The position numbers and the translations under genes were made by a program. This document shows, in pieces, positions 18,924-24,621 of a stretch of 64,000 nucleotides of DNA. The stretch covers positions 1,260,151-1,324,150 of the forward strand of contig NZ_LFTY01000002.1 of assembly GCF_001078595.1 (NCBI RefSeq). The letters run 5' to 3'. This DNA comes from Candidatus Rhodobacter oscarellae (lineage in GTDB: Bacteria; Pseudomonadota; Alphaproteobacteria; Rhodobacterales; Rhodobacteraceae). A model generated the notes under the pieces. That model did not search any database. It saw only the letters and a program-made list of their open reading frames with translations, and had not been told where the DNA came from. Within the stretch, counting starts at the first letter, position 1, and every line of letters begins with the position of its first letter.

Positions 18924-19286
18924 TCATTCCACCATCGGTGCCATTAACTCGCGTTCCTCCTCGCCGGTCACCGAGGTGTAAAAGCAACTCCGGCGGTTGG
19001 TGTGGCAGGCCGGGCCCGTTTGTTGCACGATCGCCAAAAGGCAATCGCGGTCGCAATCCACCCGCAGATCCACCAGCTCTTGCGTGTGTCCGCTGCTCTC
19101 ACCCTTCACCCAAAACGCCTGACGCGAACGCGACCAGTATGTCACGCGCCCTGTCTCAAGCGTGCGCGTGATAGCCGCCGCATTCATCCAGGCCAGCATT
19201 AGGACTTCGCCGGTCCCCTCCGCCTGGGCGATGACCGGCACGAGGCCCTGGTCATTGAATTTCAGTGTCGCCGGATCGAAGGCCAT
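18924..19286 (-). CDS. hisI: Phosphoribosyl-AMP cyclohydrolase
   Basis: Third step of histidine synthesis, opening the adenine ring of phosphoribosyl-AMP. It has 120 residues, so it is the stand-alone HisI form, not fused to HisE. Metal-binding elements are visible in LRVDCDRDCLLAIVQQ and GPACHTNRRSCFY, and the substrate region in LMLAWMNAAAITRTLETGRVTYWSRSR. It faces the NifU-like gene divergently across 64 bases. Confidence 0.96.
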   Translation of the reverse strand: MAFDPATLKFNDQGLVPVIAQAEGTGEVLMLAWMNAAAITRTLETGRVTYWSRSRQAFWVKGESSGHTQELVDLRVDCDRDCLLAIVQQTGPACHTNRRSCFYTSVTGEEERELMAPMVE

Positions 19287-19350
19287 CAGTTATCCTTTTC
19301 AACATCACTCGGACACCCTATGTAGGGGGTCCAACGAGGTGAGGGAAGCC

Positions 19351-19800
19351 ATGAGCGACGCGGACCTGATCAAGCTATATTCGGGGCGGATTCTGGAACT
19401 CGCCAGCGATATCCCTTTCACCGAGCGTCTTTCGGCGCCGGATGCCAGCGCGAAAAAGCGCTCGCCGCTTTGTGGCTCTACGATCACCGTGGATGTTTCC
19501 ATGAATCACGGGCGCGTCACGGCATTCGGTCAGGATGTGAAGGCCTGCGCGTTGGGACAAGCAGCGGCCTCGGTCGTTGGCGGGAACATCATCGGGCGCA
19601 ACCGGGTCGAGGTAGAAACGGCGCGCGACCAACTCAAGGCCATGTTGAAATCCGATGGCCCGGCGCCGGATGCGCCTTTTGATGGCCTGGAGGTGCTGAT
19701 CCCAGCCAAGGAGTTCCGGAACCGGCACGCCTCGATCTTGCTGTCATTGGAGGCCACCGCAGAGGCTATGGCCGAGGCCGAGAAATCCGCCTGCGCCTAG
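19351..19800 (+). CDS. NifU-like iron-sulfur cluster scaffold protein
   Basis: 149 residues of the NifU_N/IscU fold. The family's cysteines appear as SPLCGSTITVDV near residue 41 and VKACALGQAAASVV near 70, with a conserved Asp region between them. A third Cys is near the C-terminus. The reading frame extends upstream, but ATG 19351 follows AGGTGAGGGAAGCC and fits the family start (MSDADLIKLYSGRILELAS). It may help load or carry Fe-S clusters; it stands apart from suf genes here. Known members sit beside hisI in related genomes, but the reason is unclear. Confidence 0.88.
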   Translation: MSDADLIKLYSGRILELASDIPFTERLSAPDASAKKRSPLCGSTITVDVSMNHGRVTAFGQDVKACALGQAAASVVGGNIIGRNRVEVETARDQLKAMLKSDGPAPDAPFDGLEVLIPAKEFRNRHASILLSLEATAEAMAEAEKSACA

Positions 19801-19927
19801 CGGCCGCCCGCATGAAATTCACAATTCCCGACCCCGCGCAGACCGCAGCGGGTGCGTTCGACGGCACCTTGTGCCTTGCCGAAAAAAAGAGCGTGCGGAA
19901 GCACACATTTGGATCACGCTCCTTAAC

Positions 19928-19962
19928 AAAAAAACCGCCGCCTCGGGGGAACGAGGCGGCGG
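19928..19962 (-). terminator. Strong intrinsic terminator, minus strand
   Basis: An 11-base perfect GC-rich stem (19935-19945 with 19952-19962) and a 6-base loop are followed on the minus strand by seven T (19928-19934). It lies about 140 bases beyond the stop codon of the 40-residue microprotein and ends its transcript. The plus strand has no T-run after the stem, so the direction is clear. No gene is seen in the rest of the 300-base gap 19801-20100. Confidence 0.9.
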
Positions 19963-20100
19963 GTAGTGGCGTCGAATTGCTCCGGTCGGCGGGGATGGGC
20001 GTTGGGGAAGGCCCGATGTGCCAGGGACAGGTAGCGGCACGTTGCGTCTATTGGGACAGGGACGCAGAGAGCCGACCGGGATACGGACGCAGGCAGAAAC

Positions 20101-20223
20101 CTAAGTAATAACAGGCAGGTGCAGGCCGATTGCGAGCAGGAGGATCAGCGTTGCCGCGCCCGCCAGGTCTTGCAGCATTGTGTGGCCGGAGCGGGCGATC
20201 GTGGCTTTAAGGTCGGTTAGCAT
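20101..20223 (-). CDS. 40-residue single-pass membrane microprotein behind a LexA-like box
   Basis: The frame starts at ATG 20223 (MLTDLKATIARSGHTMLQ) and ends at TAG 20101. Residues 1-18 could form a short amphipathic helix; residues about 19-38 (DLAGAATLILLLAIGLHLPV) form one hydrophobic helix with a short tail. The ribosome binding site is weak (GAGAG). Upstream lie a GAAC-N7-GAAC box and a TACAAT -10 element, and downstream a strong terminator, so the unit looks like a complete small gene. The same frame is open upstream to 20310, but that would start before the promoter. Function is unknown; see findings for an SOS hypothesis. Confidence 0.7.
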   Translation of the reverse strand: MLTDLKATIARSGHTMLQDLAGAATLILLLAIGLHLPVIT

Positions 20224-20275
20224 CGGGGCGGGCTCTCTGTTGTTTGTTGCCCATTTGTTCTCAAATTGCGAACGG

Positions 20276-20298
20276 ATTGTAAAGAACTTTTTGAGAAC
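20276..20298 (-). promoter_or_regulatory. LexA-type (SOS) box over a promoter
   Basis: On the plus strand GAAC at 20284-20287 and GAAC at 20295-20298 are separated by exactly 7 bases. This is the direct-repeat operator described for LexA of Rhodobacter and other alphaproteobacteria (GTTC-N7-GTTC on the minus strand). A -10-like TACAAT (minus strand, 20276-20281) lies immediately downstream, so bound repressor would block RNA polymerase. Further GAAC elements occur at 20270 and 20305. No clear -35 hexamer was found. Confidence 0.65.
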
Positions 20299-20326
20299 AT
20301 TTGCGAACAAATTGCCATCCGCGGGT

Positions 20327-24621
<4,295 letters not shown>

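Follow-up and report, generated by a model that had tools for sequence, protein, structure and literature searches.

A conserved gene between recG and a NifU-like gene in the Rhodobacteraceae encodes a 40-residue microprotein, is preceded by LexA-type boxes and continues after its stop codon into a structured RNA whose unpaired segments are complementary to the ribosome-binding site of ftsZ. The reading we favor, still tentatively, is that of a LexA-repressed dual-function transcript that would slow division through both a membrane microprotein and an ftsZ-silencing RNA. The Rhodobacteraceae are a major marine and photosynthetic family for which we know of no SOS division inhibitor, and the locus provides a candidate. 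If the reading is correct, a single conserved transcript unites a membrane microprotein with an RNA that targets ftsZ, each of them a known strategy. The locus also adds a new structured RNA family and a microprotein family unmatched in Pfam or NCBIfam.

In the proposed mechanism, LexA would occupy two boxes that flank the core promoter. DNA damage would remove LexA and release a single transcript of about 300 nt. Its first half would be translated into the 40-residue protein with one membrane span, while the second half, a four-way-junction RNA with the terminator, would act in trans as a small RNA or be cleaved to one. The unpaired CUGCCUG and CUGUCC would then pair with RCAGGCGGACAG, the ribosome-binding site of ftsZ, so that less FtsZ is made. 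The membrane protein would act on the divisome or on another inner-membrane complex, and both products would delay division until repair. An action of the protein on division is doubtful and is the least supported step. A stronger version, a family-wide one-transcript SOS checkpoint in which the protein stops the divisome while the cloverleaf-like RNA silences ftsZ translation, and which arose independently of SulA, SidA and DinR, seems to us improbable.

SOS microprotein genes and small RNAs derived from 3′ untranslated regions (UTRs) are already known; their union here is new as far as we have searched the literature. In the parts of the literature covered by that search, neither the gene, its RNA nor an SOS-controlled ftsZ-targeting RNA of alphaproteobacteria was found.

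Locus

We analyzed a 64,000-nt stretch of the genome of Candidatus Rhodobacter oscarellae, hereafter the window (GCF_001078595.1, NZ_LFTY01000002.1, positions 1,260,151–1,324,150). The gene is read from the minus strand and is flanked by recG, whose stop is at 20327, and by the NifU-like gene, which is on the plus strand (frame 19162–19800). Its parts follow one another as box, ATG, 40 codons, 3′ untranslated stretch and strong intrinsic terminator (Table 1).

An original prediction, made from the sequence of the window, had described a complete miniature gene at this place. Its reading of the letters was accurate. The box given there as GAAC-N7-GAAC is in plus-strand letters and reads GTTC-TCAAAAA-GTTC on the gene's own strand; the frame of 40 codons does start at the ATG at 20223 and ends with TAG at 20103–20101; and the terminator stem is followed by seven T, as described. 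The structured RNA between the stop codon and the terminator had been missed, and the promoter extends beyond what was described, with three GTTC half-sites, TTTACA as a −35 and an inverted second box. About 20 nt past the gene's own terminator, at 19906–19891 on the minus strand, there is another hairpin with a T run that resembles a terminator.

Table 1. Coordinates of the elements of the gene (positions in the window)
Element	Position	Strand	Remarks
Upstream half-site GTTC	20305..20308	-	6 nt before box 1 (GTTC-N6-GTTC-N7-GTTC); triple in 146/164 loci
LexA-type box 1, GTTCTCAAAAAGTTC	20284..20298	-	161/164 loci; motif shared with lexA, recA and uvrA
-35-like hexamer TTTACA	20278..20283	-	TTGACA/TTGACG in some divergent members
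Second, inverted box GAACAAATGGGCAAC (GAAC-N7-CAAC)	20246..20260	-	Overlaps presumed -10/start region; 160/164 loci
40-codon gene and stop, MLTDLKATIARSGHTMLQDLAGAATLILLLAIGLHLPVIT	20101..20223	-	276/394 family genomes; selection test
Single-stranded RNA tail UUUCUGCCUGCG, complementary to ftsZ leader GCAGGCGGA	20088..20099	-	CTGCCTGC count; ftsZ ranking
Conserved structured RNA	19928..20096	-	Outer stem, arms with CUGUCCC / CCUGUCCC loops, third arm, terminator
Intrinsic terminator, 11 pairs	19935..19962	-	Then seven T (19934-19928); helix 95.7% of cells paired (75 sequences)

Microprotein

The original prediction had suggested looking for the 40-residue frame downstream of recG in Rhodobacterales relatives. 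The frame was matched in 276 of 394 genomes of the same family (single-sequence query, E ≤ 0.1), nearly always in one copy; named carriers include Ruegeria, Phaeobacter, Tritonibacter, Sulfitobacter, Rhodovulum and Frigidibacter. Of the genomes with no match, the first 20 on the list were searched again with a profile of 83 relatives, which gave 10 matches, 9 of them beside recG. The tenth, in G029, lies away from recG, has an internal stop and was not counted as a gene. At two further loci (G001 and G015) divergent frames with a similar promoter were read by eye, and together with the nine matches beside recG they bring to 11 of 20 the "no-match" genomes that have the gene. Extrapolation from these 20 genomes, which are not a random sample, would put the gene in roughly 85% of the family.

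Beyond the family, 289 genomes sampled from the class gave the family profile no convincing match. Two genomes of other alphaproteobacterial families have weak matches (best E 0.003 and 0.008) that fall within frames of 290–652 codons, and we took these as chance. The protein of one relative (L023) had no match among 72,556 plasmids.

Details of the gene were compared at 84 loci (6 of 90 were dropped because they gave no tblastn match). recG lies upstream in 83 of the 84, within 260 nt of the ATG in 82 of these, and the downstream stretch fetched contains the NifU-like gene at 73. The protein is 39–42 residues long except at L058 (45 residues), and exactly 40 at 70 loci. D19, G22 and L34 are invariant over the 83 rows of the alignment (A1, which excludes L058); K6, R11, T15, L26, L30, L36 and P37 are nearly so. 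Selection was assessed on the 70 sequences of 40 codons, excluding the 14 of other lengths. The frame has a synonymous bias, the absence of which the original prediction had named as evidence against a gene: of 2415 pairs, only 3 have a pN above their pS, the mean ratio is 0.50, and the two shifted frames of the same sequences give mean pN/pS of 0.93 and 1.65. Judged by these comparisons of sequence, the frame is almost certainly a real conserved gene, and one that looks translated.

A structure model of the protein has helices at residues 2–11 and 13–39 (mean pLDDT 88.9). Residues 23–39 are predicted to be membrane-like (best 17-residue hydropathy 2.35), in line with the one hydrophobic helix described originally and consistent with a single membrane span within the long second helix. 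An amphipathic N-terminal helix was considered and found unsupported (moment p 0.255 for the window's protein, p < 0.1 in 17% of 70). The protein has no match in Pfam, NCBIfam or PHROGs at E up to 1, and its family profile hits no sequence in the PDB.

TisB and DinQ of E. coli are likewise small membrane peptides under SOS control, with antisense-RNA control and membrane depolarization among their features (PMC3567139, PMC8145889); the likeness here rests on size, span and operator. By analogy, the gene might encode a LexA-controlled membrane-depolarizing peptide, with the 3′ RNA controlling its own translation or decay. DinQ is a toxic one-span peptide under SOS control (PMC3567139), and a single span, small size, SOS-type operator and structured mRNA would all suit such a peptide. 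Against it, the gene occupies one fixed place, mostly as a single copy, in many genomes of the family, and the relative's protein has no plasmid match. No antisense RNA gene was noticed in the course of the analysis. An invariant D19 and a conserved K6/R11 are atypical of a simple pore peptide. We consider a depolarizing peptide quite unlikely and retain the dual-function transcript as the preferred reading.

Promoter

The box on its own carries no signal. The window contains one GTTC-N7-GTTC against 1.48 expected, and the whole genome (5.04 Mb) contains 101 against 152 for a reversed control; on these counts we rejected any significance judged from the window alone. The box is significant because it is conserved upstream of the frame, as the original prediction had proposed to check. 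GTTC-N7-GTTC stands within 260 nt upstream of the frame at 161 of 164 loci and in 0 of 715 windows drawn at random from these loci. The 164 loci (84 plus 80 named) comprise 147 distinct sequences, many from close relatives. The three exceptions (L095, L219 and L220) have three GTTC at 6-nt spacing, and the triple GTTC-N6-GTTC-N7-GTTC is found at 146 loci. A GTTC-N7-GTTC near the promoter, the mark of the alphaproteobacterial LexA (SOS) regulon, is present at nearly all loci.

What is conserved in this region is GTTCTTTAC, with the −35-like TTTACA/TTGACA; the combination GTTC-N7-GTTCTTTAC occurs upstream at 150 of 164 loci. Spacing was measured at 156 anchored loci, the other 8 being left out: CTTTAC is present in 153 and CTTGAC in 3, and TTTAC is separated from the GAAC of box 2 by 18 nt in 149. 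The TACAAT originally taken for the −10 element is present at 20281–20276, directly after the box, but is not conserved as such and falls within the conserved TTTACA region, and we rejected it in that role. The inverted second box, GAAC-N7-[CG]AAC, is found at 160 of 164 loci. Its last half-site is CAAC in 145 of the 156 anchored loci and a perfect GAAC in 4, a pattern that looks like a fixed weakening. Box 2 of three divergent members (L251, L274 and L277) is a perfect GAAC-N7-GAAC.

The LexA type ascribed to the box agrees with a positive control: the lexA, recA and uvrA genes of 15 genomes have a perfect box within 125 nt of the match start at 45 of 45 promoters. Two features count against the LexA reading. 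Box 2 is mostly imperfect (CAAC), and box 1 differs from canonical boxes at position 10, which is A in 96% of 83 loci and T in 92% of 50 canonical boxes. Position −1 is T in 96% of the 83 loci and in 80% of the canonical boxes.

Another regulator that recognizes GTTC repeats could read the operator, leaving the gene outside the SOS response. Such a regulator would fit the A at position 10, where the lexA, recA and uvrA boxes have T, and the restriction of GTTC-N7-GTTCTTTAC to the microprotein gene among 13 family genomes sampled: nine of the 13 have exactly one copy of the motif, and these are the nine with a protein match. (One of eight sampled genomes of other families, G400, has the motif once with no such gene beside it.) The exact GTTC-N7-GTTC core at all 45 canonical SOS promoters speaks against another regulator, as does the perfect second box in the three divergent members. 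We find this alternative very improbable, and control of the gene by LexA, through predicted binding and induction, likely.

The SOS motif of Caulobacter is also GTTCN7GTTC, and about 97% of its SOS promoters have a single box (PMC12700426), so a two-box promoter would be unusual. The main text of a LexA study in D. shibae (PMC6473078) does not mention recG, and one section of it does not name the gene.

The GAAC-N7-GAAC of all 15 recA promoters (L124–L138) is preceded, within 45 nt, by a lone GTTC, similar to the layout of the microprotein promoter. The lexA promoters of 5 of 15 genomes, the window's genome included, have a tandem GAAC-N7-GAAC-N7-GAAC (L109, L111, L114, L115 and L120).

Structured RNA

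The 3′ 170 nt of the transcript are a conserved structured RNA that lies wholly after the stop codon. Within the first 200 nt of the 3′ UTR, CTGCCTGC occurs at 55 of 84 loci and CCTGTCCC at 52, and the commonest 8-mer in 20 shuffled control sets reaches at most 11 of 84. Individual folds of 24 sequences mostly share one architecture: CUGCCUG as a single-stranded tail, then an outer stem, a junction bearing at most three arms, and finally the terminator. In 110 non-redundant UTRs (142 of 164 were kept for a recognized terminator and a length of 120–230 nt before near-copies were removed), the unpaired fraction is 0.73 for CTGTCCC and 0.72 for CTGCCTG versus 0.41 overall.

Because an alignment of 3′ UTRs by sequence only lost the structure, a covariance model was built from one clade. 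This model (R1, 15 sequences) matches 75 of 78 other loci at E ≤ 0.01, the six of the 84 loci used in building it being excluded; several low-scoring matches are only 55–100 nt long. The window, which R1 had not seen in training, scores 23.7 bits (E 0.0006), among the weaker full-length matches; it scores 65 bits with model R2, whose training set included it. As for the three loci missed by R1, a second model recovers L050 but not L033, and L097 gives nothing convincing.

Over 75 sequences, 87.4% of cells pair and 46 of 50 pairs show compensatory changes. Both partners vary in every one of the 36 pairs that lie outside the terminator helix. The covariation score is 0.300, versus 0.099 with 500 shuffles and 0.036–0.056 for slid versions. 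Because the covariation alignment was fitted to the structure, the single-sequence folds provide the independent support. The RNA of the window folds with a z of −6.74 (−3.67 without the terminator). One chance antisense match (L068 1703–1871 +, E 0.009) is retained in alignment A5 and model R2.

Rfam 15 gave one match for the window, at the terminator and far below gathering (E 0.81), which we took as chance; for six relatives, none of five matches at E up to 1 overlaps the element. The four-way-junction RNA is a new structured family with strong covariation, and very probably a functional one. It has the conserved structured 3′ end and intrinsic terminator of regulatory RNAs derived from 3′ UTRs. 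A search for further copies found none convincing; the second-best matches in G000 and G005, the two that were read, show no junction RNA. Thirty trans-encoded small RNAs have been reported in Ruegeria pomeroyi, and the part of that paper available mentions recG, NifU and LexA zero times each (PMC4809877).

Three loci keep the protein and the promoter without a detectable RNA (L033, L275 and L277; L097 is unsure), so the protein can do without the RNA. At L030 the protein and promoter are kept and the RNA is shortened. These four loci are natural test cases for which product matters.

Such loci fit another reading, in which a LexA-controlled protein of the SidA/YneA type blocks a membrane protein of the divisome and the 3′ RNA merely stabilizes or times the mRNA. 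The protein is conserved, its operator is of SOS type and a single span is predicted, and small membrane SOS division inhibitors are known elsewhere (SidA, YneA and SosA). SidA is a 29-residue membrane protein and, to our knowledge, is not known to carry a regulatory RNA. Compared by description, and with no homology claimed, the two systems share an SOS-type operator, a very small membrane protein and an alphaproteobacterial host; SidA is an SOS-induced division inhibitor of Caulobacter (PMC12700426). A merely stabilizing 3′ end, however, would need no conserved unpaired loops, and no result obtained here indicates a protein target. A protein acting by itself in this way is rather unlikely in our view, and we continue with the dual-function transcript.

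Complementarity to ftsZ

ftsZ was examined because DinR of Klebsiella represses ftsZ, so the target was chosen beforehand and not from a scan. DinR is cut from the 3′ end of the LexA-controlled dinI mRNA and represses ftsZ at the ribosome-binding site (PMC10907235). The RNA described here resembles it as the 3′ part of a small-protein mRNA under probable LexA control and in its pairing, here predicted, with the ftsZ ribosome-binding site. By description the two also differ: DinR is cut from within the dinI coding sequence, and DinI modulates RecA filaments (PMC10907235), whereas here the protein is a membrane microprotein and the RNA lies wholly after the stop codon, has a four-way junction and is family-wide. 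The E. coli dicBF operon similarly provides a small RNA, DicF, and a protein, DicB, both directed against division; it differs, again by description, as a prophage operon under DicA and not LexA (PMC10448788).

The unpaired CUGCCUG and CUGUCC of the RNA are complementary to the ribosome-binding site of ftsZ, where the leader upstream of the MTLNL start reads RCAGGCGGACAG, with the complements of the two loop motifs side by side. This match gives a division role a new and independent lead from the RNA. A first test, which used the whole 3′ UTR and a misplaced ftsZ start in 15 genomes, gave a mean z of −0.53 for ftsZ, −0.86 for recA, +0.54 for lexA and +0.61 for uvrA. Pairing of accessible regions was tested in a form designed after the motif had been seen. 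With corrected starts, 43 leaders were available from 15 + 28 genomes (29 of 30 additional genomes gave an ftsZ match); the counts exclude G008 (no ftsZ match) and G022 (partial match), and the ftsZ start of G017 is unsure.

RCAGGCGG occurs in the ftsZ leader of 31 of 34 genomes with the RNA versus 3 of 9 without it (Fisher p 0.0009, kinship ignored), and GGACAG in 18 of 34 versus 1 of 9 (p 0.055, kinship ignored). G057 was counted as a carrier because its RNA match is weak but present (E 0.00016 at the expected locus, nothing in a genome-wide search); recounted as RNA-less, the figures become 30/33 versus 4/10 (p 0.002) for RCAGGCGG and 18/33 versus 1/10 (p 0.026) for GGACAG. Seven of the genomes are without the gene, and an FtsZ tree places five of them on long branches, so the association may reflect ancestry and not co-evolution. 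The other two, G023 and G056, are nested among carriers and have neither gene nor RNA; both keep RCAGGCGG and lack GGACAG. In G030 the RNA is absent, yet the full leader RCAGGCGGACAG is present. Conservation of RCAGGCGG could reflect merely the Shine-Dalgarno region of ftsZ.

Among 333 gene starts of the window's own genome (464 kb, starts assigned by a simple rule), CAGGCGGACAG occurs in one, that of ftsZ. ftsZ ranks first of the 333 for the RNA tail and tenth for the whole RNA, for which nine other gene starts score equal to or above it. Helices between RNA and leader, weighted by accessibility and compared with shuffled leaders, give a negative z in 30 of 30 genomes (mean −2.0; 6 of 36 carriers were without an RNA sequence); pairing of the cognate partners reaches p < 0.05 in 13 of the 30 and not in 17. 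In 14 genomes with control leaders (G189 left out), the z is −2.03 for ftsZ, −0.11 for lexA, −1.11 for recA and −0.29 for uvrA. An RNA pairs slightly better with the leader of its own genome than with that of another (permutation p 0.018, kinship ignored). Contiguous pairing, G-U included, extends over 10 nt in G355 and G275, 11 in G007 and 12 in G239. The 11-mer GGGACAGGCAG, used as a target search in 15 genomes, showed no enrichment over a reversed control.

A real small RNA might instead have a main target other than ftsZ, with its C-rich loops binding many G-rich ribosome-binding sites or a protein. Several loops do carry similar C-rich motifs, the full RNA ranks ftsZ only tenth, and GGACAG is missing from 16 of the 34 ftsZ leaders of RNA-bearing genomes. 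ftsZ, however, was selected on the precedent of DinR without a scan, and its leader has the complements of both motifs adjacent. We think another main target somewhat unlikely. The complementarity to ftsZ is a good lead, short of proof; ftsZ as a direct target of the RNA, with predicted repression, is a serious possibility that falls somewhat short of probable.

The ftsZ leader of G018 (L327) has the two motifs in swapped order, and its GGACAGGCAG is the exact complement of the consensus loop CUGCCUGUCC. In the RNA of G018 itself, CUGCC and CCUGUCC are separate, and the best helix pairs CCUGUCC with GGACAGG.
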